Source: a virus. Taken from it: a stretch of DNA of 34,742 bases. The position numbers and the translations under genes were made by a program. The notes under the pieces are model-generated. The model was not told the DNA's origin, did no database searches, and saw only the letters and a program-made list of their open reading frames with translations. The stretch covers positions 1 to 34,742 of the IMG/VR virus record IMGVR_UViG_3300045922_000730; one strand, given 5' to 3'. Below, one piece after another: positions 259-14,424 of the stretch; position 1 is the first letter of the stretch, and each line of letters opens with the position of its first letter.

Positions 259-1486
259 AACGCAATTAGAACTAGCTTTTCACCGATACGCTGACGTGTT
301 CCCAATGATGGACGCAGCAGAGTTTTCATCGCTCAAGGAAAGCATCAGCAAGGGCGGGCTAAAGGAACAAATCTGGCTGTATGAGGGCAAGATTCTAGAC
401 GGCAGAAACCGATATTTAGCCTGCCTAGAGGTTGGGATAGAGCCAGAGTTCAGAGAGTTTCGAGGCACTGATGAGCAGGCACTAGAAGCGGTCATCGCCT
501 GGAACCTGGAGCGGCGGCATTTGTCGAGCTGGCAAAAAGCAGCGATCGCCACCGAAGCCGACGGACTGTTTGAGGAACTGACAGAGCAGGCAAAGGCAAG
601 GCAGCTATCGACGCTGAAGCAAAACCAGCCCAAAGAGGAGTGCGGCAATGTGGCGATCGCGCCCCTGCCTCCTACGGCTCCCGTTGTGCAAAATTTTGCA
701 CAACGGGTTGATACTCGACCCGAAGAAAGTAAAACCCGCGCAAAACTTGCCCAAGCATTCGGCACCAACCGTCAGTACGTCCAAGACGCACTGCGAATCA
801 AAGCCGAAGCCCCCGAAGTCCTGGAAGCCTCAAAACAGGGTGTACTTTCCGGGCCGCAGGCAAAGTCCATCGCTCAACTTCAGCCAGAGCAGCGACAAGA
901 GGCGATCCAGGTCTTGCAAGAAACCCCCAAATCAAAGCGCAGCGCAGCGCTCAACGCCCTGCTGAGCAGCGAGTCAAACGAGTGGTACACACCCGCTCAG
1001 TACGTCGAAGCAGCGCGGCGGGTGATGGGGCAAATTGACCTAGATCCAGCCTCCAACGCTGTAGCCAATGAGGTTGTAAGGGCAGAGGTATTTTACGACA
1101 TCGAAGACAACGGCTTATCACAGCCCTGGAGTGGGTGCGTATTCCTGAATCCTCCCTATGGACAGGACAACGACAAAAACGCCAGTAATCAGGCGATTTG
1201 GGCAAGACGCCTGATTGACGAATACGAATCTGGCAGCGTCACGCAAGCAATTTTGCTTGTCAATGCTGCCACTTCAGCAAAATGGTTTGAACCGCTGTTT
1301 GAACACGTCATTTGCTTCACCAATCACCGCATCAAGTTCTATCGCCCTGGCGCTGATGCAAACTCGCCCACCCAGAGCAACGCCATTGTCTACATGGGCG
1401 ATCGCGTTGACAGTTTCGCTGAGGAGTTCAAAGAGTTCGGAGCGGTCGTTAAAAAACTAGTGGAGCACTCCAGTGAATCAATTTGA
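248..1486 (+). CDS. ParB-like domain fused to phage N6-adenine DNA methyltransferase
   Basis: This 412-aa protein has two recognisable parts. Residues about 10-115 resemble the ParB/Srx N-terminal domain (ILDGRNRYLAC at 49-59 matches the family's DGRHR-type box), followed by a KorB-like helix-turn-helix near 161-185. Residues about 243-400 match the phage Dam-type N6-adenine methyltransferase family: EWYTP at 245-249, LDPAS at 265-269 and the catalytic NPPYG at 301-305. It would transfer methyl groups from S-adenosylmethionine to adenine in DNA; the ParB-like part may give DNA binding. The ATG at 248 overlaps the doubtful upstream ORF, and the 3' end overlaps the nuclease-like gene by 14 bases. 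The target site is not known; GATC, the core of HIP1, is a reasonable candidate but is inference. Confidence 0.85.
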   Translation: MLLRTQLELAFHRYADVFPMMDAAEFSSLKESISKGGLKEQIWLYEGKILDGRNRYLACLEVGIEPEFREFRGTDEQALEAVIAWNLERRHLSSWQKAAIATEADGLFEELTEQAKARQLSTLKQNQPKEECGNVAIAPLPPTAPVVQNFAQRVDTRPEESKTRAKLAQAFGTNRQYVQDALRIKAEAPEVLEASKQGVLSGPQAKSIAQLQPEQRQEAIQVLQETPKSKRSAALNALLSSESNEWYTPAQYVEAARRVMGQIDLDPASNAVANEVVRAEVFYDIEDNGLSQPWSGCVFLNPPYGQDNDKNASNQAIWARRLIDEYESGSVTQAILLVNAATSAKWFEPLFEHVICFTNHRIKFYRPGADANSPTQSNAIVYMGDRVDSFAEEFKEFGAVVKKLVEHSSESI

Positions 1487-2763: not shown

Positions 2764-3024
2764 ATGCTGGCAGAACAGCCCAAACCTGTGTTTTTCAAAG
2801 ACCTGGCGCGGCGCTTCGGCGTTACCGAGCGCACGCTCTACAACTGGTTCGCGGCAGCGGGCCCGTTGGGGTGGCTCGACCCCACTGGCGATCGCCAGTG
2901 GTTCGACGAGGAGGATGCTTTGTGGGCTGCTGACTGGCTTGCTTTCAGGACTCAGGTTTCGTCTAAAGCGCAGCTCTACATTGCTGCGGTTCAACGCAAC
3001 AACTACCAAAGGATTTTTGTATGA
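2764..3024 (+). CDS. Small HTH DNA-binding protein
   Basis: This 86-aa protein has a helix-turn-helix at about residues 11-30 (FKDLARRFGVTERTLYNWF), followed by a wing-like GWLDPTGDRQWF and an EEDALWAADWLAF helix, an arrangement like excisionase/MerR-type small DNA binders. Its ATG lies only 3 bases after the last half-site of the phased array, with no Shine-Dalgarno sequence, so binding there would block both transcription and translation initiation. It overlaps the next gene by 4 bases (ATGA). The likely role is regulator or partition/origin-binding protein of the array; this is inference from position. Confidence 0.7.
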   Translation: MLAEQPKPVFFKDLARRFGVTERTLYNWFAAAGPLGWLDPTGDRQWFDEEDALWAADWLAFRTQVSSKAQLYIAAVQRNNYQRIFV

Positions 3025-3422
3025 CACTTACCGAGGAACAGAAACAAGCGCTCAACTCCGCCGCCAATTGCAGAACCCGGAAGAAAAGCACTAAGCAGGC
3101 GCGTCAATCTGCTGCAAGCAGCGCAAGTGGAACCGCAAGTGACGTGAAGGGGGCTGACCTGGTTGACTTGGCGGCGATCGCCCAACAGTTCAACCAGGTC
3201 GGGCAAACCGTTGGACTGACAGCGATCAACTCAATGCATCAAGGTATTGCCCAGGTGTTTGAGTCCTACCGCCAGCACGGCGGCGTCCAGTTCTTTGTGC
3301 AGCAGGTGGGCGATCGCGCTGTAGCGCTGCCGGAAGCTGCACCTAACCTGTTGGGAGCAGCAGAGCCATCGACAAAGGATGAGGCGATCGCCGCCATTGA
3401 AGCCCTGTTTGTGGAGGAGTGA
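3021..3422 (+). CDS. Hypothetical 133-aa protein with basic N-terminus
   Basis: The ATG at 3021 overlaps the HTH gene stop (ATGA). Residues 1-40 are basic and low in complexity (RTRKKSTKQARQSAASSASG), and residues 45-105 form predicted helices with many Gln, Val and Ala. No membrane segment or known domain is seen. It lies between the HTH gene and the membrane-protein genes of the same operon and ends in GTGGAGGAGTGATGG, which supplies the ribosome site for the next gene. The function is unknown; a soluble partner of the downstream membrane complex is possible. Confidence 0.65.
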   Translation: MTLTEEQKQALNSAANCRTRKKSTKQARQSAASSASGTASDVKGADLVDLAAIAQQFNQVGQTVGLTAINSMHQGIAQVFESYRQHGGVQFFVQQVGDRAVALPEAAPNLLGAAEPSTKDEAIAAIEALFVEE

Positions 3423-3901
3423 TGGAATCACTGCTAGATCCTCGCAAGGCAGCGGGCAACAGCCTGGTGATCAGCCTCCTGTTAGTTGTTTGTGGTGCCG
3501 CAGTTTCGGTGACGCGCCTACAGACCGCCACAGCGGAGTTCGGGCGCGACAAGATCGCCAGCTACCGCGCCGAACGTTGCCGCATCGTTGGCAACGGCGA
3601 AAAGCTGGAGCTGGGAGCTTTCTACTTTCAGCCGATCCCTGGCGGTGGCGAGTGGCTGTCGGAGGGCGAATATCTGTGCGACCTGTTTGGCAATAGCGGA
3701 CGGGTTGAGCGCAATGGCTCGTTGCAGCACTTCGTAAACTCGCCGCCGGAAGAGGTTAACAAAGTGCTGATGAAGCGCCTGGAGAATCCAGCCCTGCCCG
3801 ACAGCAACCCGCAGTTTCGCCCACTACGCGATCGCACTCGCCCGCCCGTCTACCTGGAAGAGGCGATCGCGCCTGATAGCCAAGTTTTTCAACAGCCCTA
3901 G
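3422..3901 (+). CDS. Membrane-anchored protein, unknown function
   Basis: This 159-aa protein has one predicted transmembrane helix near residues 13-30 (NSLVISLLLVVCGAAVSV) and a large soluble domain of about 125 residues. The soluble part has a CRIVGNGEKLELGAFYFQ segment and a second Cys (EYLCDLFGN), which could form a disulfide outside the membrane. ATG 3422 is chosen because GGAGG (3413-3417) lies 4 bases upstream and TGATG couples it to the previous gene; a GTG at 3419 is an alternative. Its place beside a polytopic membrane protein and a DNA-pump-like ATPase suggests part of a membrane assembly. Confidence 0.7.
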   Translation: MESLLDPRKAAGNSLVISLLLVVCGAAVSVTRLQTATAEFGRDKIASYRAERCRIVGNGEKLELGAFYFQPIPGGGEWLSEGEYLCDLFGNSGRVERNGSLQHFVNSPPEEVNKVLMKRLENPALPDSNPQFRPLRDRTRPPVYLEEAIAPDSQVFQQP

Positions 3902-3911
3902 AGAGGTTCTT

Positions 3912-4634
3912 ATGTCCTTGCCCTTTGAAGCAACGCAGCAGCCCGGTGGACGCCCGTCCGAAGCTGCCCGCCCAACTGGCCACCCTACAGCAGGCAAAGC
4001 AAAGCCGCGGGGTGGCAGCGCTATTTACAATTTCGCCCAAGTGATTGAGAACGTTTTCAGCCACCGCGGGCTGTTTGTCTTGGGGGTGGTCGTCACCCTC
4101 GTCTGCTTCTACGCAAACGCAAGCTTTTGGGTAAACGTGTTCGCCTCGGTTGGCTACGCAGGGGCGATCGCGCTATTTCTAGGCGTCTTGGCAAGCTTTG
4201 GTACTTCAATCTTCCAGGTGTTGCCAGTGGTGTACCAACACAGCCGCCGCCTCTCGTTGATGCGCCTTTTCAGCGCAGGTATTAAGCCCGATCGCCTGCC
4301 TGCGATCAATGACAAGGTTGTGCCGGACGCAGAAAGGATGCTGACCCAGTACAAAGAGAGCGATCGCGCTCGGCGCAAGTTTTTCTCAATGATGCGCTGG
4401 GTCGCCTACGGAGTAGAAACCCTGATGGGGGTAATTTTCCTGGGCAGCGTCGGCACAGGCTTTGTCGGCATTGTGCAGCTCCTCATGTTCGTCGTTTCAA
4501 TCGTTGGAGTGGAGTGGGGTGTCTCCCTAGCGCTTCGGGCTAGCCAAGACGAACTGCCGCCGAACGTGCAGCAGCAATTTGACAGCCTGATTGAGAAATC
4601 GAATCAGCAGCTTAGCCTGAAGGAGATCCGCTAG
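3912..4634 (+). CDS. Polytopic membrane protein, unknown function
   Basis: This 240-aa protein starts at ATG 3912 with GAGAGG just upstream. After a Pro/Gly-rich basic N-terminus, two hydrophobic helices occupy about residues 52-100 (GLFVLGVVVTLVCFYA; GAIALFLGVLASFG) and two more about 160-205 (GVETLMGVIFLGS; LLMFVVSIVGVEWG). A charged loop lies between the pairs (KPDRLPAINDKVVPDAERM). The gene stop overlaps the GTG of the ATPase gene (CTAGTG), so the two are coupled. It may be the membrane partner of that ATPase. Confidence 0.75.
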   Translation: MSLPFEATQQPGGRPSEAARPTGHPTAGKAKPRGGSAIYNFAQVIENVFSHRGLFVLGVVVTLVCFYANASFWVNVFASVGYAGAIALFLGVLASFGTSIFQVLPVVYQHSRRLSLMRLFSAGIKPDRLPAINDKVVPDAERMLTQYKESDRARRKFFSMMRWVAYGVETLMGVIFLGSVGTGFVGIVQLLMFVVSIVGVEWGVSLALRASQDELPPNVQQQFDSLIEKSNQQLSLKEIR

Positions 4635-6157
4635 TGACTGCGATCGCCCCATTCCAGCCCCAGCGGACTGAAACCAACGGATACCTAGACCCGGATCAGA
4701 CCATCATTGATTACTGCGTGCGAGAGCTGGGCTGCACGTTTCAAGAGGTAATTCAGGACGACCCAAACCGGATGCTCAGGGCATGGCAGCGGCTACGCAA
4801 AACTGGGCAGCAAGCGGCGATCGCCGGAGTCGGGCTGGGTGGGGTGGGGGTGGCGTTAGGCGTGTTCGCTGGCGCAACACCCCTGATGATCGCTGGGGTA
4901 AGCGTCGTTGCCCTCAACGGCTGGCTGTGCAAGGTTCATGCAGACGCTCAAGAGGCGATCGCAATTGAATCCGACGTGCTGAACCAGTGCCGACCCGCCC
5001 TTGACCTGCTTGCCAAGCTGGAGCAGCAAGGCGTCAACGCATCGCACCTGGTCAGCATCTACAACCGATTGGTGCAGTTTGCCAGCACCAATCGCCTTGC
5101 AGCCGACGACCCCAAGCAGTTAGCCGACTTTTTCAAAATGAGCCTTAAGCAGGCTCAAATGCTTAAGGCTCTAGAGCCGGAGCCGGAGCCGGAGCCGCCG
5201 CAAGCGACTGAGTTTGCGGTCACGGTTCAGCTTCCGCAACTGCAAGCCCCCGTCTGTCCCCAATCGCCCCCATCTACCTCTGCCGAGACTAGGCAAGAGA
5301 CGCCAGACAACAACTGGCAACCTCCGGCAGTGCCGACTGACGACATTGCTAGGGATCTGGCAAGCAATCTCAGATCAGCCCTAGTCGTAGGGCAGCCTGG
5401 TGCAGGAAAGGGAATCGTCGTGGCACAGGCAATCCGAGAGATCAAACGGCAGCGTTCAGACTTGCAGATCTGGGTGATCGACCCCAAAAATGAGCCCTCT
5501 GAGGCGCACTACTGGGAGCCTGCCGACAAGGTGCTACGCCGCACAATCGATCCGTTCACCTCGCCCAATGAGATGGAACTGATCGTTCAGGACTTTGAGG
5601 AATTTATCAGCCGATTCAGTGCGATAAAAGCCCCCAAATTGCTGATCGTTGATGAGGTTCTGACGATCATGAACAAGGCTAAACAGTGGTATCAAAACTT
5701 CCTAGCCCCTGGCTGTCATGCGCTGTGCAGCACTGGGCGGGCTGCTGAATCTTACGTGTGGCTGATCTCCCAAAGCCCCAATGCCACCGACTTCGGCATG
5801 TCGGGCGGAACCCGCAACGTATACCGCCGCTTATTGCTGGTCAGTGCCGACAACGTCGGGCTACTGGCTAATGGTTCAACCTTTTTCTCTGGCTACCCTG
5901 AGCAGAAGCTTTTCTCTGCGACTGGGCGCGTTTTCTACGATTCGGTCGCCAACCGCTGGGGCGCAACTCCGGTTTACGATCTTTGCTCCGTCACCAGCTT
6001 TGCCGACTGGCTCAAGACCAATCAGCCCGCAACGGTTGAGCAGGCGGTCGGCTTCTTTGGCGGCGATCGCGCTCAATTCAAGCAAGAGGCGATCGCCCTA
6101 GTGGAGAGCGGGGCGATCGCCTTCGACGCAAGCACTCAAGTTTTTTCTACACCATAG
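4634..6157 (+). CDS. Membrane-anchored P-loop ATPase (HerA/FtsK/TraD-like)
   Basis: This 507-aa protein starts at GTG 4634. The N-terminal part has two glycine-rich hydrophobic helices (about 60-97), followed by a helical region (105-180), a PEPEPEPEPP linker encoded by four GAGCCG repeats (5174-5197), and an ATPase domain from about 245. The Walker A motif is GQPGAGKG (253-260), Walker B is LLIVDE (336-341), and WLISQSP (376-382) resembles the sensor segment of DNA-pump ATPases. WVIDPKNEP (280-288) is typical of the FtsK/HerA/VirB4/TraD and Zot groups. The likely role is DNA or protein movement at the membrane; which of these groups it belongs to is not resolved. The C-terminal 60 residues look like a small winged-helix-type domain. 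Confidence 0.8.
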   Translation: MTAIAPFQPQRTETNGYLDPDQTIIDYCVRELGCTFQEVIQDDPNRMLRAWQRLRKTGQQAAIAGVGLGGVGVALGVFAGATPLMIAGVSVVALNGWLCKVHADAQEAIAIESDVLNQCRPALDLLAKLEQQGVNASHLVSIYNRLVQFASTNRLAADDPKQLADFFKMSLKQAQMLKALEPEPEPEPPQATEFAVTVQLPQLQAPVCPQSPPSTSAETRQETPDNNWQPPAVPTDDIARDLASNLRSALVVGQPGAGKGIVVAQAIREIKRQRSDLQIWVIDPKNEPSEAHYWEPADKVLRRTIDPFTSPNEMELIVQDFEEFISRFSAIKAPKLLIVDEVLTIMNKAKQWYQNFLAPGCHALCSTGRAAESYVWLISQSPNATDFGMSGGTRNVYRRLLLVSADNVGLLANGSTFFSGYPEQKLFSATGRVFYDSVANRWGATPVYDLCSVTSFADWLKTNQPATVEQAVGFFGGDRAQFKQEAIALVESGAIAFDASTQVFSTP

Positions 6158-6167
6158 GAGCAAAACA

Positions 6168-6422
6168 ATGGAAGAAGAATATCAATACTGGGAAGAAGAT
6201 GGGCAGTATCAAGGTGAGCAATATTACGAAGAGCCTCAAGGCTATTCAGAGGACTGGGTAGACGCAGACAGCGACGGCTGGGGGATCACCCCCGGCATCG
6301 GACTCTTTGGCGGCTGCGCCTGGAGCCATACGACGGTCTACGACTCGGATGGGAATGAAGTGCATCAAGAGAGCAGCCGGACGCCGTTCTTTGGGTTAGG
6401 AGGATTTTTGGGGCTGTGGTGA
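6168..6422 (+). CDS. Acidic tyrosine-rich small protein
   Basis: ATG 6168 follows the ribosome site AGGAG (6155-6159) at an 8-base distance. The first 37 of its 84 residues are almost entirely Glu, Asp, Tyr, Gln and Gly (EEEYQYWEEDGQYQGEQYY), so highly acidic and probably disordered. The C-terminal half is Gly/Phe/Trp-rich (GIGLFGGCAW and TPFFGLGGFLGLW), which may associate with the membrane. It overlaps the GIY-YIG gene by 7 bases. The function is unknown; an acidic N-terminus beside DNA enzymes could mimic DNA, but this is speculation. Confidence 0.65.
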   Translation: MEEEYQYWEEDGQYQGEQYYEEPQGYSEDWVDADSDGWGITPGIGLFGGCAWSHTTVYDSDGNEVHQESSRTPFFGLGGFLGLW

Positions 6423-6775
6423 ACCCATCAGGCATCTATCAGATTCGCTGCCAGCGCAACGGACGCCGCTACGTCGGCAAATCCGAAAACATTCCTCGAC
6501 GCTGGCAGCAGCACCGCCGAGAGCTAGATTCTGGACGGCATTGCTGCGATCGCCTCCAAGCCGACTGGAATCATTATGGGGCGCGGGCTTTTGCCTTCTC
6601 AGTAGTCGAATATTGCCATCCTTGGCTGATGAGCGGTAAGGAAGCCTACTGGATCAAAATGATTGGAGACTACAATGAACAGCGCCCACAGGTTCCCCGG
6701 TGGGTCTTGCTGGCGAATGCGATCGCCCTACTGCTCTCCCTACTCGGACTGATCGCCGTCCTCTTGCTGCTCTGA
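6416..6775 (+). CDS. GIY-YIG nuclease with C-terminal membrane helix
   Basis: This 119-aa protein has the GIY-YIG fold signatures in order: GIYQI (6-10), RYVGKS (18-23), the catalytic-type Arg/His helix RRWQQHRREL (28-37), and the metal-binding Glu in GKEAYWI (Glu76), ending near YNEQRP. Residues about 95-119 are a strongly hydrophobic helix with eleven leucines, ending at the stop. Start candidates are GTG 6416 and GTG 6419, with AGGAGG at 6399-6404. The nuclease part is about 90 residues, as usual for stand-alone domains; the membrane tail is unusual. It probably cuts DNA at the membrane, perhaps on DNA handled by the neighbouring ATPase. Confidence 0.85.
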   Translation: MVNPSGIYQIRCQRNGRRYVGKSENIPRRWQQHRRELDSGRHCCDRLQADWNHYGARAFAFSVVEYCHPWLMSGKEAYWIKMIGDYNEQRPQVPRWVLLANAIALLLSLLGLIAVLLLL

Positions 6776-6793
6776 GCTAATGCAGCCACCCAA

Positions 6794-6823
6794 AAAAACC
6801 GCCCCTGACTGAGGGCGGTTTTT
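6794..6823 (+). terminator. Bidirectional rho-independent terminator
   Basis: AAAAACCGCCC (6794-6804) pairs perfectly with GGGCGGTTTTT (6813-6823) across an 8-base loop. A-runs and T-runs flank both sides, so it can stop the plus-strand operon ending at 6775 and the minus-strand operon ending at 6843. Confidence 0.9.
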
Positions 6824-6842
6824 AAATGCGTCAGGCTGTCGC

Positions 6843-8280: not shown

Positions 8281-9702
8281 ATGCTACGCAAGAAATCTAT
8301 TGAGTCCCAGCCCGCCCGCCTTGAAGAGATCGGGCGTCTGTTCAAAGGTTCTCCTAAGCGCACTGTTGAGAGCCGGAAGCAACCTGGCAAAATGATTGAG
8401 GTCGCAGGCTCAGAGCTGGATCACTATCGCTTTGAGCCTGCGGACTGGACGAAGGCGATCGCCCTCAACGGTGGCACGCTCTATGACCAGCTTGCCCAGC
8501 GCTGGCATCAGTGCCGGGAATTGTTTAGCGACTGGCGATCGGTGCAGGTGATGCTGCCGTATCCGACCCTTGAGCAGAACTATTTCTACGAAAACGCCAA
8601 GTTTGACGGGGCGCGGCGCTGCGTTCGTCGGTGCGACGGCGAAATCTGCACTCGGCACGAAGAAAAGTACGGCGATCCTAAAACGGGCAAGCAGGTGAGC
8701 CGGATCGCCACCAACCCGATCCCCTGTGCGGCCGGCCCAGATGACGAAAAGTGTCCCGCTGGCTGTGTGCAGCGGGGACAGCTCAAGATGCTTGTCCCGG
8801 CGCTGGAGTATCCCGGCGTGGTCATCCTGACGACCCACTCAAAGCGCGACATCGTGGCGCTGCTGGGCAATCTGAAGGCGTTTGGCGACCACGACCTAAG
8901 CCGCATTCCGCTGCGGCTGCTGCGAGTTGAGGAGCGGTGCGATCGCCCCAACAGCGACGGCTCACTCTCCAGCGGAACTAAATGGTTCTGCCGTTTACAG
9001 GTTGATCCGCTCTATGGCGGCCGGGCGCTGGCGGAGCAGCATCGACTTGCGCTCACGGCGGGCGGCGAGCCGGAACCGCTTCGGCTGGCAACTTCCAGCA
9101 CCGTGGAACCTGCGCCGCTGAAACCGTTTCGACAGCAGCAGGAGTGGCTAGACTTTCAGCAGGCGATCGCCAGTGCGATTCGCTCTGCCAAGCCCGCTGC
9201 GGTCGATTCCGCCTGTGAGATTGCGCTGCTGCTGGTGGAAAACGGCATCCTGCCCGACCATGCCCGCAAGAGCGTCGCCACTGAGCGCGATCGCGCAATG
9301 GATGCGATCGCCTCGCTCGGCATATCTGCGCCCGTCCCAACCGAGCAACCCACCAAGCCGACCCGTAAAAAGGTTGAGAAAGCGCAGTACATCGCGGCGG
9401 ATGGGTTGCCGCAGCGAGTTGAGGCGTTGTGCAGCCTGCTGAAGTGCCAGCCGACCGACTTGGAGGCGATCGCCGTTTCAAAGACCGGGCGATCGCTTTT
9501 GGAACTGTCGAGTTCCGATTTCCGCAAGGTGCGATCGCTTGCGTTCCTGGATTGGGCGACGATTGCACGGGGCGATCGCGGTCTGCCAGCTATCAACGTG
9601 GCAAGTGAGTGGACACGGATGGCTGAGGAACTGGGTGATTTGTCGGGGCTGAGCGACAGCGAACTGTTTCAGCGGTGGGGCGATCGCATTTTGAGTGTTT
9701 AG
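8281..9702 (+). CDS. Recombination directionality factor-like (Gp3-like) zinc protein
   Basis: From ATG 8281 the product is 473 aa; the frame stays open back to TTG 8071, and the start is unsure because neither has a ribosome site. Residues 80-170 hold Cys114, Cys118, Cys123, Cys149, Cys158 and Cys162, including RRCDG, consistent with zinc binding. A conserved-looking core follows: LKMLVPALEYPGVVILTTHS (168-187) and LSRIPLRLLRVEE. The RCDG box, the Cys cluster and the leucine-proline core recall the Gp3-like recombination directionality factors of phages with serine integrases, which switch integrase from integration to excision. The C-terminal 220 residues are a separate helical region. The identity is from memory of the family and is moderate. 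Confidence 0.6.
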   Translation: MLRKKSIESQPARLEEIGRLFKGSPKRTVESRKQPGKMIEVAGSELDHYRFEPADWTKAIALNGGTLYDQLAQRWHQCRELFSDWRSVQVMLPYPTLEQNYFYENAKFDGARRCVRRCDGEICTRHEEKYGDPKTGKQVSRIATNPIPCAAGPDDEKCPAGCVQRGQLKMLVPALEYPGVVILTTHSKRDIVALLGNLKAFGDHDLSRIPLRLLRVEERCDRPNSDGSLSSGTKWFCRLQVDPLYGGRALAEQHRLALTAGGEPEPLRLATSSTVEPAPLKPFRQQQEWLDFQQAIASAIRSAKPAAVDSACEIALLLVENGILPDHARKSVATERDRAMDAIASLGISAPVPTEQPTKPTRKKVEKAQYIAADGLPQRVEALCSLLKCQPTDLEAIAVSKTGRSLLELSSSDFRKVRSLAFLDWATIARGDRGLPAINVASEWTRMAEELGDLSGLSDSELFQRWGDRILSV

Positions 9703-10525: not shown

Positions 10526-10804
10526 CTAGCCCTTGCCAGCGCGATCGCCCTGAACACTTAAGATCCCGTGCAGAATTGAGCCAGTACCAAAAAACAGCCC
10601 CAACACCTCGGACGACAGCTCCCAGCGCACCCCGTTCGCGTCATATCGCACCCCAGACCCGATAATCAGCAGAAACGCAGCCAGCCCGGCCAGCCCGTAG
10701 ATCTGGAGCCGCTCAGCGCTGATGCGCTGTCTATGTTCTCGCTCGTACAGCCGTTCCAGCGTTTCGAGGCGATCGCTCATCAGCTTCAGTTCGTCTTCGT
10801 TCAC
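10526..10804 (-). CDS. Small membrane protein with coiled coil
   Basis: GTG 10804 overlaps the stop of the DUF3102-like gene (GTGA). Residues 1-32 are a charged heptad-like helix (ELKLMSDRLETLERLYEREH), followed by a transmembrane helix at about 34-50 (IYGLAGLAAFLLIIGSG) and a second moderately hydrophobic helix at about 66-84 (EVLGLFFGTGSILHGILSV). This topology (cytosolic coiled coil plus two membrane helices) is seen in some holin-like and signalling proteins, but no family is recognised and the gene is far from the lysis genes at 22.7 kb. Confidence 0.65.
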   Translation of the reverse strand: MNEDELKLMSDRLETLERLYEREHRQRISAERLQIYGLAGLAAFLLIIGSGVRYDANGVRWELSSEVLGLFFGTGSILHGILSVQGDRAGKG

Positions 10805-11466
10805 AAAGCCTCCAGGATTGCCGCTAACTCCGCTAGTAGCTCAGGCGTCAGTGTTTTCTGCTCGTAGATCCGCTCTAGCAGGGTGCGGAGCTGGCGCGTC
10901 GTGGGACGGGCGACTCGGCTTACTGCCTGCGGGGTTCCCGGCGGCGCATCCTCTGAGCGCTCCAATTCTGCTGGTAAAAACGGGAACTCAAGCCCCTGAT
11001 CGTCTACGACGCACATCAGCACAGAGCCGCACCGTTCCGCAACTCGCACCAGTCCCCCTGCATACAGACTGCCGGGCGCAACCACCCGCGCCACGTCGCC
11101 GATCGCCAGGTCTTCGACGGGTTGAGCCGGAACATCAATCGTCTGCACCTCAATTTGGCGCGGTTCGGCGATCGCTTCATCTGCCAACAGTTTCAACGCG
11201 GCTTTGATGCTGAGCACTTCTGCTTCCTGGATCTTGTCCCAGTCGCGGGCGATCGCCATGTACCGCTGGGCAGTGCGCTCACTCAGCTCGCAGTTTTCCT
11301 CAATCCATCTTGTCCAGGTGCCGTGCGGATGCAGCTCTTTCTCTTCGATCAGCAGCCGTCCACAGTCGTAGGCGCTTTGCAGCGCGTCTCTAGTTGCCTC
11401 CATGCAGGCGCGGTGTCTGCGGTTGATTGCCGCCGCCCGACTCAGGCTTTCTGATGTCGCTAGCAT
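10801..11466 (-). CDS. DUF3102-like DNA-associated protein
   Basis: ATG 11466 is chosen because it overlaps the sigma-factor stop; upstream extension to 11697 lies wholly within the sigma gene. Residues 13-85 match the DUF3102 pattern: a helix with CGRLLIEEKELHPHGTWTRW (35-54), then IEENCELSERTAQRYM (55-70), a helix-turn-helix-like SERTAQRYM element. These proteins are frequent in phages and plasmids and are thought to bind DNA. Residues 115-165 form a KOW/SH3-like strand region (IGDVARVVAPGSLYAGGLVR). It is the second gene of the minus-strand operon headed by the sigma factor. Confidence 0.7.
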   Translation of the reverse strand: MLATSESLSRAAAINRRHRACMEATRDALQSAYDCGRLLIEEKELHPHGTWTRWIEENCELSERTAQRYMAIARDWDKIQEAEVLSIKAALKLLADEAIAEPRQIEVQTIDVPAQPVEDLAIGDVARVVAPGSLYAGGLVRVAERCGSVLMCVVDDQGLEFPFLPAELERSEDAPPGTPQAVSRVARPTTRQLRTLLERIYEQKTLTPELLAELAAILEAL

Positions 11467-12095
11467 AGGCAGCCTCGCAGCGTTTCGATCGCTGTCTCGA
11501 TCGCCAGTTCCACCACCGCCACGCTGCACCCATGCCGGAGGGCGATCGCCTGGGGTGTCTGCCCACCAAAGTAATGCTCTCGGACACAGGTGCGCTGAAA
11601 CTCTGGCAGGGCGAACAGGGAGTCTAGCCAGTCGCGATCGCCCTGAATCTGCGGGTCTGCCTGAATCTGTGGATCTGCTTCGTCCAGGCTGACGCACTGT
11701 CCGCGCCTCGCCTCAACGATCTCAGCCCAGCGCTGGGCTGAGATGCCTGAGAGCTGAGCAACAGTCGCTAGGTCGAGCGATCGCCCGTGTTTCTCCAGCA
11801 GCCGGTGCGCTCTAGCAACGCGCCCGTAGTCCTCAACGTCGCGGCGCGGCGGGCGGACGGCATACCCGCGATCGCGCAAGTAGTGCTGTATCTGCCCTCG
11901 AATCAGAGGCACCGCGTATGAACTAAAAGCGCATTGCCTGCCGCCGTCAAAACTCCGCACCGCCTTGATCAGCCCGATTGTCCCTTCCTGAATCAGATCG
12001 TCGTAGGGCTCGCGGCACAAGCCCTGAAAACGCCTCGCCAGCTTGCGAACCAATCCCATGTTTCGCTGAATTAGATCGGCTTCACTTTTTCCCAT
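11460..12095 (-). CDS. Sigma-70 family RNA polymerase sigma factor
   Basis: From ATG 12095 the product is 211 aa; an in-frame ATG 12134 would add 13 untypical residues. Region 2 is clear: LIQRNMGLVRKLARRFQGL, then YDDLIQEGTIGLIKAVRSFD with the core-binding DLIQEG box, and SSYAVPLIRGQIQHYLRDRG for -10 recognition. A region-3-like HTH (DLATVAQLSGISAQRWAEIV) and a region-4-like HTH (FGGQTPQAIALRHGCSVAVV) follow. It lacks region 1, as in group 3 (SigF/SigB-like) and phage sigma factors. QADPQIQ/QGD near residue 150 is a short internal duplication. It probably directs host polymerase to phage genes. It is divergent from the HU gene. Confidence 0.85.
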   Translation of the reverse strand: MGKSEADLIQRNMGLVRKLARRFQGLCREPYDDLIQEGTIGLIKAVRSFDGGRQCAFSSYAVPLIRGQIQHYLRDRGYAVRPPRRDVEDYGRVARAHRLLEKHGRSLDLATVAQLSGISAQRWAEIVEARRGQCVSLDEADPQIQADPQIQGDRDWLDSLFALPEFQRTCVREHYFGGQTPQAIALRHGCSVAVVELAIETAIETLRGCLC

Positions 12096-12197
12096 GATCT
12101 CTGAATAGCGAAAAACTGATAAAATCTTGCCCATGCTGCCAATTGCGCCAATAGACTGAGTATATTCTTTGAGAATCCCGTCGTTTCACAAATCGGC

Positions 12198-12476: not shown

Positions 12477-12504
12477 TCGTCTGCATGGTCTGATCTCCTC
12501 TAAT

Positions 12505-12526
12505 GCCCGCGCTTGCGGGCTTTTTT
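12505..12526 (+). terminator. Rho-independent terminator after HU
   Basis: GCCCGC (12505-12510) pairs with GCGGGC (12515-12520) around GCTT, followed directly by six T (12521-12526). The next start codon, ATG 12527, begins at the base after the T-run. Confidence 0.9.
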
Positions 12527-13120
12527 ATGACTCAAGCAAAACTTACCGACTTTGTACCCGATCCGCACAATGCCAACAAGGGCACGGAGTACGGGCGATC
12601 GCTCCTAGAAAAATCCCTCGGCACCCTTGGCGCTGGCCGGTCGATCGTTGTTGATAAAAACAACGTGATCATTGCTGGCAACAAAACCCTGGAAACCGCT
12701 GTAGAGTCCGGGTTTGAGAATGCCATCGTCGTCGAAACTGACGGTTCGGCATTGGTTGTCACCAAGCGGGTGGATCTCGACCTCTCCACTGACGAGAAGG
12801 CGAAAAAGCTGGCGATCGCCGATAACCGCGTCGGGTCTGTCTCTCTTGCCTGGGACGAGGAGGTGCTAGAGGAGCTGCACGAAGAAATCGACCTTTCCGA
12901 CTGGTTTCTAGAATCCGAGATTGAGGACTGGGGCGAGGCGGCGGCGGAAGACGAGGAGGAGCCTGCTGGGTCTGGGGTGGACGGCGATCGCTACGTGATT
13001 CCAATCGTCCTGAGCCACAGGGAAAACCAGATTTGGCAGGCAGTCAAACGGGGCTACGGGGTGAAAGACGACAAAACTGTATTTCTGAAACTGCTGGAAG
13101 GCAGGGCACTGGAGGACTAA
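12527..13120 (+). CDS. ParB-like nuclease-domain protein
   Basis: This 197-aa protein starts at ATG 12527; the ATG at 12503 lies inside the terminator stem and is rejected. The first 90 residues follow the ParB/Srx N-terminal pattern common in phages: DFVPDPHNANKGTEYG, GAGRSIVVDKNNVIIAGNKT and LAIADNRVG. An acidic linker (WGEAAAEDEEEPAGSG) separates it from a C-terminal helical part. Such phage proteins often sit with methyltransferases or DNA-modifying enzymes and may bind or nick DNA. No ribosome site is visible, as the terminator occupies that position. It overlaps the radical SAM gene by one base (TAATG). Confidence 0.75.
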   Translation: MTQAKLTDFVPDPHNANKGTEYGRSLLEKSLGTLGAGRSIVVDKNNVIIAGNKTLETAVESGFENAIVVETDGSALVVTKRVDLDLSTDEKAKKLAIADNRVGSVSLAWDEEVLEELHEEIDLSDWFLESEIEDWGEAAAEDEEEPAGSGVDGDRYVIPIVLSHRENQIWQAVKRGYGVKDDKTVFLKLLEGRALED

Positions 13121-14424
13121 TGGCACAGCAGTTAACAACCTATTACGGCGAATTTCTGGTATCGCCGATTCCCTTGGAGCTGAGCGTGATTGAACCTTGC
13201 TCGATGGGCTGTGCGTATTGTTTCGCGGTGTTGGGCGATCGCCACCAAGCCCAAAAATCCGGCAAAAGCAAAGCCCGTAACGGCTCCAAGCAAGCCGTGA
13301 ACCTTCTGGCAGACTACCAAAACCGCGACACCCTAGAGGCGAAGCTGCTGCAAGCGGGCTACCCCGTCCTGCTCAGCAACCGCACCGACCCCTTCAGCCT
13401 GAGCAACCGCACCGCCGCTATCCCGATCATGCGCCTGATGGTTGAGTTAGGAATCCCGATCGCCCTCCAGACCAAAGGCTTCAGCCGGCCCGACGACCTA
13501 CCGGAAGTGCTGGAATTCCTCAAACCGTCGTGCTGGTATATTTCAATCAGCTTCAACGAAGACGACCTGCGCGCCAAAATTGAGCCGGGTGCGCCGAGTG
13601 TGGGCGATCGCCTCCGACTAATCGAAACCCTCAGAGCACACGGTCATTCCGTCGTCGTCGGGATTAACCCCTGCGTCCCTGAGTGGCTACCCCGACCGCA
13701 AGAGCTGATCCAGCAAATTGCCGCCGCTGGTGCAGAGGGCGTGTGGGTGCAGAGCCTGCACCTGAGCAGCAGCCAAGAAAAGCAGCTTAGCCCACGGGAG
13801 CGGGGGGCACTGACAGAGGAGATTATCGCCCGCGCCAAAAAGCGCACCTGCGACCCAAAAGACAGCGATCACTTGAACCTAGTAAGCGATCTGGCAGCAG
13901 CTCAGGGGCTTGAGGTCTACACGATGGGGCAAAATCGGCGATCGGACTTCTTTGAGATCTACCGACGGCACTACCCCAAGACTTTCCCGGTACTGCAAGA
14001 TTTTGTGAATCTCTGTCACGACGAGGGGTTGGAAAAAGGGGCGATCGTCACGTTCGAGGATTTCTACGAGCTGATGTCCCCATTCCTGCCTGAGGGCGTG
14101 CTGCAAGTTGGGCATTACTTGGGCGCAACCGCTCACAACGTGATCCGTGATATTCCCAATTGGAGTAACAAATTCACCTACGATGCTTTGCTGGCAATGC
14201 TTTGGGATGAGCCGCGCTACAACCTCAGCCCAGCGCAAACGCAGGCATTTAGCTACGCCCTGGCGTCGGGCAAAGAGGGGAATGCTCTAATTACAAGCGA
14301 GAACGAATTACCCTGCCTGACGTTCAATCCAGAGCCGGGCGGCTGGGGGGATTTTTACGAAGTGGTGGCGACCGTTGACGAGTTGCCCCAACTGTTTCCA
14401 GAGGAATTAAGCGAGGCAAGCTAA
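13120..14424 (+). CDS. Radical SAM enzyme
   Basis: From ATG 13120 (GGAGG 4 bases upstream) the product is 434 aa. The [4Fe-4S] motif CSMGCAYC gives Cys27, Cys31 and Cys34, which bind the cluster that cleaves S-adenosylmethionine to a 5'-deoxyadenosyl radical. VLLSNRTDPFS (83-93) and WYISISFNEDDLRAKIEPGA resemble the SplB-like (spore photoproduct lyase) and related radical SAM groups, in which substrates include DNA bases. No SPASM Cys cluster is seen at the C-terminus. It is locked by one-base overlaps between a ParB-like gene and a basic Ala/Ser/Arg-rich protein gene. The substrate is unknown; DNA, RNA or the downstream protein are the options. Confidence 0.85.
   Translation: MAQQLTTYYGEFLVSPIPLELSVIEPCSMGCAYCFAVLGDRHQAQKSGKSKARNGSKQAVNLLADYQNRDTLEAKLLQAGYPVLLSNRTDPFSLSNRTAAIPIMRLMVELGIPIALQTKGFSRPDDLPEVLEFLKPSCWYISISFNEDDLRAKIEPGAPSVGDRLRLIETLRAHGHSVVVGINPCVPEWLPRPQELIQQIAAAGAEGVWVQSLHLSSSQEKQLSPRERGALTEEIIARAKKRTCDPKDSDHLNLVSDLAAAQGLEVYTMGQNRRSDFFEIYRRHYPKTFPVLQDFVNLCHDEGLEKGAIVTFEDFYELMSPFLPEGVLQVGHYLGATAHNVIRDIPNWSNKFTYDALLAMLWDEPRYNLSPAQTQAFSYALASGKEGNALITSENELPCLTFNPEPGGWGDFYEVVATVDELPQLFPEELSEAS

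Follow-up and report, generated by a model that had tools for sequence, protein, structure and literature searches.

A putatively tail-anchored GIY-YIG nuclease in an accessory cassette of two sister phages

SNIPE (PD-lambda-1; Nature 2026), a membrane-bound bacterial defence nuclease of the GIY-YIG type, cuts phage DNA during injection (PMC13190303). Its nuclease is tethered to the inner membrane by an N-terminal anchor and lies on the cytoplasmic side; without the transmembrane (TM) region, SNIPE becomes toxic to the host, a toxicity that depends on catalysis, and the enzyme requires its catalytic glutamate (PMC13190303). Among SNIPE homologues, 66% contain one or two TMs, which lie within the first 70 residues (PMC13190303). 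Besides the anchor, SNIPE comprises DUF4041, which binds DNA and the tape measure, and a C-terminal nuclease domain with E414 as the catalytic residue. GIY-YIG domains also occur in I-TevI, the homing endonuclease of the phage T4 td intron (1ln0/1mk0), in which the catalytic domain continues into a linker and a DNA-binding domain; in free-standing homing endonucleases of phages; and in UPF0213/YhbQ-type proteins, which represent small stand-alone GIY-YIG domains.

Here we describe a 119-residue phage protein that shares the fold and the catalytic residues of I-TevI but continues into a single hydrophobic helix where I-TevI continues into its linker and DNA-binding domain. Like SNIPE, it pairs a GIY-YIG domain with a TM anchor, in this case a putative one, in a single protein; location of the domain on the cytoplasmic side is proven for SNIPE and presumed here. 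Unlike SNIPE, it carries the presumptive anchor at the C-terminus, lacks DUF4041, is phage-borne and is accompanied by an acidic partner gene. Identity with SNIPE was rejected, as DUF4041 and the N-terminal anchor are both missing: Pfam searches up to E=1 gave no DUF4041 match, with all 119 residues accounted for, and the sole hydrophobic segment maps to residues 101-119, with no N-terminal TM region. The first-pass annotation of this DNA had started from the premise that stand-alone GIY-YIG proteins are soluble; membrane-bound SNIPE shows that this is no general rule (PMC13190303).

The phage and its closest relative

The protein is encoded in a 34.7-kb virus record, and by "the window" we mean the entire stretch of DNA analysed, i.e. 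all 34,742 nt of the IMG/VR record IMGVR_UViG_3300045922_000730. Among the products of the window are terminase-like, portal-like and capsid-like proteins (named by eye and from conserved gene order) and a protein of 1416 aa that contains a PhageMin_Tail domain. The HIP1 motif GCGATCGC, which is typical of cyanobacteria, was abundant upon direct inspection, and the host is presumably a cyanobacterium. The phage is probably temperate, although neither an integrase nor a lysogeny module could be established in it. Its closest relative is represented by the IMG/VR contig 3300044994_000276 (loci L002, L104 and L105; L002 in the following); the late proteins of the two are 87-99% identical, marking them as sister phages.

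Several other genes of the window were noted in passing. A ParB HTH domain is fused to a phage Dam-type adenine methyltransferase (248-1486; PF17762 and PF05869). The product of 8308-9702 contains a Gp3-like/recombination-directionality-factor domain (PF18897); compared to L002, its N-terminal part is divergent while its C-terminal end is nearly identical, placing a mosaic breakpoint within the gene. On the minus strand, a sigma-70 family-like factor (by eye) adjoins a DUF3102 protein (11460-12134 and 10801-11697); both are 99% identical in L002, and together they possibly constitute a phage-encoded transcription switch. Between the early and the packaging genes, a ParB-like protein (by eye) is followed by a radical-SAM protein (12503-14424), whose match to PF04055 (E=3.9e-6) fell slightly under the cut-off. 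Rfam yielded no match in the window or in L002.

An I-TevI-type domain with a hydrophobic C-terminus

The nuclease gene (Table 1) starts with a GTG codon, 5' of which an AGGAGG sequence is found at 6398-6403, and encodes a basic protein (pI 9.6) with a catalytic domain of net charge +7. It matched the Pfam GIY-YIG family PF01541 with E=2.1e-12 and 47.6 bits (cut-off 22.6). All GIY-YIG landmarks had been reported as present in the first-pass annotation, and our alignments bear this out: the protein contains G6-I7-Y8, Y19-V20-G21, R29, H42, E76 and N87, and thus the GIY...YIG core as well as the catalytic Arg, Glu and Asn residues of the superfamily. Across an alignment of 44 sequences, G6, I10, G21, E76 and N87 were invariant and Y8, Y19, R29 and H42 were at least 90% conserved.

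Table 1. Positions of the cassette, its parts and the preceding ATPase gene in the window
Feature	Position	Strand	Evidence and remarks
P-loop ATPase of plasmid type (N-terminal hydrophobic segment); neighbouring gene, probably outside the module	4634..6157	+	Related genes on cyanobacterial plasmids and in genome G188; unrelated ATPase in L002
Cassette (acidic gene, nuclease, terminator) common to L002, flanks otherwise unrelated	6162..6842	+	blastn, pairwise alignment
Acidic 84-aa protein, pI 4.05, co-inherited partner	6168..6422	+	7-nt overlap with nuclease gene; conserved part dN/dS 0.09; other copy only in L002
GIY-YIG nuclease (119 aa) ending in a hydrophobic helix	6416..6775	+	Pfam PF01541; I-TevI fold; AlphaFold2 pLDDT 93; dN/dS 0.29 vs L002
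Catalytic GIY-YIG domain, residues ~6-90	6431..6685	+	Alignments; phmmer to 1mk0/1ln0; structure match; dN/dS 0.16
Hydrophobic C-terminal helix, putative tail anchor, residues 95-119	6698..6772	+	Kyte-Doolittle mean (19 residues) 2.73; octanol sum; AlphaFold2 helix; kept in L002
Intrinsic terminator at cassette end	6795..6825	+	Hairpin MFE -19.5 kcal/mol, z -3.8 vs shuffles; kept in L002

In a phmmer search of the PDB, the I-TevI catalytic domain was the sole match. An AlphaFold2 model, computed from the 44-row alignment, adopted the alpha/beta GIY-YIG fold and superimposed on 1ln0 with a Z score of 15.7 and an rmsd of 1.1 Å over 86 residues at 34% sequence identity, the next fold relatives scoring far lower. 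The match to the UPF0213 protein 1zg2 was much weaker (Z 2.9), and a UPF0213-like 88-aa example in a more distant phage record (L166; label by eye) bears no long hydrophobic tail. The best PHROG match was PHROG 7168 (E=9.9e-14), a family of free-standing phage homing endonucleases, which are likewise located in phages but differ from the present protein in that the latter is without a DNA-binding module. Among the PADLOC models, Uzume UzuA was matched in its GIY-YIG part only (positions 184-250 of 278, E=5.6e-6); a search for Uzume together with GIY-YIG found no report in the paper collection covered. Comparison with L002 gave a dN/dS of 0.29 for the entire gene and of 0.16 for residues 1-95. 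The domain thus looks catalytically intact and of I-TevI type, and is presumably an active nuclease.

No DNA-binding domain accompanies the catalytic unit. Pfam searches up to E=1 revealed no domain besides GIY-YIG, the match to SegE PF19835 remained under the Pfam cut-off (16.8 vs 25 bits), and the 29 residues after the catalytic domain, which make up the hydrophobic helix, leave no room for such a domain. A standard I-TevI/Seg-type homing endonuclease therefore does not fit, as NUMOD, HTH, zinc finger or other DNA-binding elements are lacking.

The last 25 residues of the protein, RWVLLANAIALLLSLLGLIAVLLLL, had been described in the first-pass annotation as a TM helix with eleven leucines; hydropathy and structure prediction agree with a hydrophobic helix, while the number of leucines is 12. 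With a Kyte-Doolittle mean of 2.73 over 19 residues, the tail ranked first when all stop-to-stop frames of the window with a length of 60 aa or more were compared (268 frames), and only 1 in 20,000 residue shuffles reached this value. The Wimley-White octanol sum is -11.2 kcal/mol, and AlphaFold2 predicted a separate helix at residues 95-118, outside the catalytic domain. The hydrophobic segment lies at the extreme C-terminus, as in tail-anchored proteins. R95 directly precedes the helix, which, together with the positive net charge of the domain, favours an N-in topology. Judged by its hydrophobicity and predicted helix, the tail would insert into the membrane, and it is quite probable that the nuclease is membrane-tethered in one way or another.

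ClpXP, Tsp/Prc and FtsH proteases can recognise non-polar C-termini, and the tail might in principle represent a degradation signal or a folding element instead of a membrane anchor. However, such signals are short, and a continuous, uncharged helix of more than 20 residues with the above octanol-scale sum exceeds them by far; we deem this explanation very improbable.

The nuclease of L002 is 92% identical, with frame, stop codon and hydrophobic tail all kept (Kyte-Doolittle mean 2.69). At the start of the tail, codons 98-100 differ (LLA in the window, DVC in L002), whereas the last 19 codons show just two differences, too few to reveal selection on the tail itself. A frameshift at this position, put forward in the first-pass annotation as a possible complication, is not seen in the relative, and an origin of the tail by frameshift or read-through was ruled out on the basis of the two sequences, as frame and stop codon are kept and a terminator follows.

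Beyond L002, we found no C-terminal membrane helix among ~80 related GIY-YIG loci, comprising 60 viral loci, nine genome loci and 12 matches among 386 cyanobacterial genomes. In L077, a protein has a hydrophobic stretch, which however falls into the translated sequence 5' of the likely start codon. Scanning 244 cyanobacterial genomes with PF01541 returned frames that mostly measure 84-120 aa and contain the complete domain, among which rare tailed forms are possible. When 18 records of more distant phages with related terminases were searched, an above-cut-off GIY-YIG match was obtained in the sister phage alone; a weak match in G389 corresponds to a short, tailless protein of 88 aa. As two sister phages are the only known carriers of the tailed form, independent support for it is thin.

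These observations bear on the main rival to a nuclease acting on entering DNA, namely a decaying homing endonuclease: a free-standing gene of I-TevI type whose DNA-binding half was lost and whose hydrophobic tail was acquired by chance, the product having no function at the membrane and the gene being a passenger, either selfish or in decay. The fold and the best family matches (the I-TevI structure, PHROG 7168 and PADLOC HEase models) are indeed those of homing endonucleases, phage GIY-YIG matches are frequently annotated as such, the first tail codons are variable, and the tailed form is limited to the two sister phages. However, without its DNA-binding part a homing enzyme would not be expected to home, the catalytic residues are all retained in a domain with low dN/dS, and the tail, the most hydrophobic among the ranked frames, is in frame, ends at the same stop in both phages and is succeeded by a terminator. 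We therefore regard a remnant of this kind as doubtful.

A cassette with an acidic partner gene

Homology between the window and L002 sets in 6 bp upstream of the acidic gene's ATG and ends ~680 bp further on. To the left of this region, the two phages carry different ATPase operons, and to its right different HTH regulator genes. Because homology is confined between two sets of different flanks, the acidic gene, the nuclease gene and the terminator behave as a unit of moron-like shape. In the window, the terminator hairpin begins ~18 nt past the nuclease stop; in L002, a 149-bp insertion separates the two. The inserted sequence (L002:6358-6506) reads, by eye, as the C-terminal end of a TnpB of the IS200/IS605 type, LDRDHNAAINIKYLAVGHPVNKAQ...YASA followed by a stop, and is apparently a transposon remnant. 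A consensus scan detected no promoter of the cassette's own, and no empty cognate site was found, the cassette sitting between non-homologous flanks in both phages.

The first gene of the unit encodes the acidic protein and, as previously annotated, overlaps the nuclease gene. Its product has a net charge of -17, of which -14 resides within the first 38 residues. This segment is rich in Tyr and Glu and differs from its L002 counterpart by an indel and many substitutions. In contrast, the conserved part, GWGITPGIGLFGGCAWS.TTVYDSDGNEVHQESSRTPFFGLGGFLGLW, is rich in Gly and aromatic residues, nearly neutral (-3) and, with a dN/dS of 0.09 vs L002, under strong purifying selection. Structure prediction was unusable (pLDDT 52), and the protein matched no family in Pfam, PHROG or the PADLOC models. 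Searches of plasmids, phages and viral contigs, and of 386 plus 42 cyanobacterial genomes (the genome searches run without a positive control), returned a relative in L002 only. The earlier suggestion that the protein is a DNA-mimicking inhibitor finds no support in this pattern, as the charge sits in the variable segment and the conserved part is nearly neutral. Given co-inheritance and gene overlap, the protein is likely a partner of the nuclease.

Such an arrangement would also suit a toxin with its partner, in which the nuclease, once freed, damages DNA of the host or of a phage at the membrane and the acidic protein provides immunity or acts as an antitoxin, for abortive infection or cassette maintenance. 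The order of an acidic gene followed by a basic nuclease, their 7-nt overlap, their co-inheritance as a unit and the strong constraint on the conserved part of the acidic protein are consistent with this idea. However, overlapping genes are common in phage operons, the acidic protein resembles no known family, and it is its acidic segment that varies while the conserved part is near neutral; a toxin pair thus appears unlikely.

Upstream of the cassette lies a plasmid-type operon for a single-TM protein, a multi-TM protein and the P-loop ATPase with its N-terminal hydrophobic segment (2764-6157 in the window; L002:1809-5757 for the operon of the same layout). Each of the two ATPases has relatives on many cyanobacterial plasmids, and we found no relatives of the window ATPase in phage records. 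The closest one, with 40% identity and the same operon layout, is located on a cyanobacterial plasmid-like contig (L095; contig C62 of genome G188), where a ParM/actin-like gene (by eye) stands upstream of the ATPase operon. This contig also encodes a distant GIY-YIG-like protein of 123 aa (808-1176, minus strand), which lacks a tail and lies 8 kb from the ATPase.

As the nuclease gene is the last one of this operon in the window, and as the cassette of L002 likewise ends an operon of the same layout, the nuclease might be a working part of the ATPase machinery, trimming or nicking DNA during its transport across the envelope by a membrane ATPase complex. However, homology between the two phages breaks exactly at the end of the ATPase gene, neither BLASTP nor hhalign detected homology between the two ATPases, and the 17 loci from plasmids or genomes in which the window ATPase has relatives contain no nuclease relative adjacent to the ATPase. 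We consider such a role improbable and do not favour a job shared by nuclease and ATPase; for the same reasons the operon, which the first-pass annotation had used as a guide to function, proved a weak one. Cutting of DNA at the membrane, which had been proposed from that neighbourhood, stays plausible on other grounds, as SNIPE does precisely this (PMC13190303).

A possible role in superinfection exclusion

By analogy with SNIPE, we suggest that the cassette encodes a tail-anchored phage nuclease that cuts DNA as it enters at the membrane and so mediates superinfection exclusion, a reading to which we assign a rough probability of 0.4. According to this proposal, an I-TevI-type catalytic domain would have had its missing linker and DNA-binding domain replaced by a single C-terminal TM helix. 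The catalytic domain would lie on the cytoplasmic side, and the C-terminus would stop within the membrane or barely beyond it. A nuclease lacking a recognition domain would be held in check by the tether, which would at the same time position it where DNA crosses the membrane. Presumably expressed during lysogeny, the phage being probably temperate, the locus would serve as an accessory cassette for exclusion: its nuclease would cut the incoming DNA of other phages (or plasmids) and thereby protect the host of the resident phage from rivals. The acidic protein, as the co-inherited partner, may regulate, restrain or recruit the nuclease.

The phage nuclease may thus work like SNIPE while being built from the catalytic part of a homing endonuclease. 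A more far-reaching version, in which we place little confidence, sees it as a minimal phage counterpart of SNIPE, where the position of the anchor replaces sequence recognition in distinguishing rival from own DNA, and the acidic protein either shields the genome of the resident phage or sets off the nuclease. The concept of a membrane-bound nuclease has already been published for SNIPE; a 119-residue, phage-carried and C-terminally anchored form without a targeting domain would be new.

If the proposal is true, 119 residues with a catalytic domain of the homing-endonuclease type suffice for the SNIPE-like strategy of a membrane nuclease, and phages also carry this strategy and turn it against other phages. 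As it contains no DUF4041, the protein would offer a small, tractable system in which to ask how much of the self/non-self discrimination of SNIPE is due to position alone. A direct nuclease would then join the known superinfection-exclusion proteins of phages.
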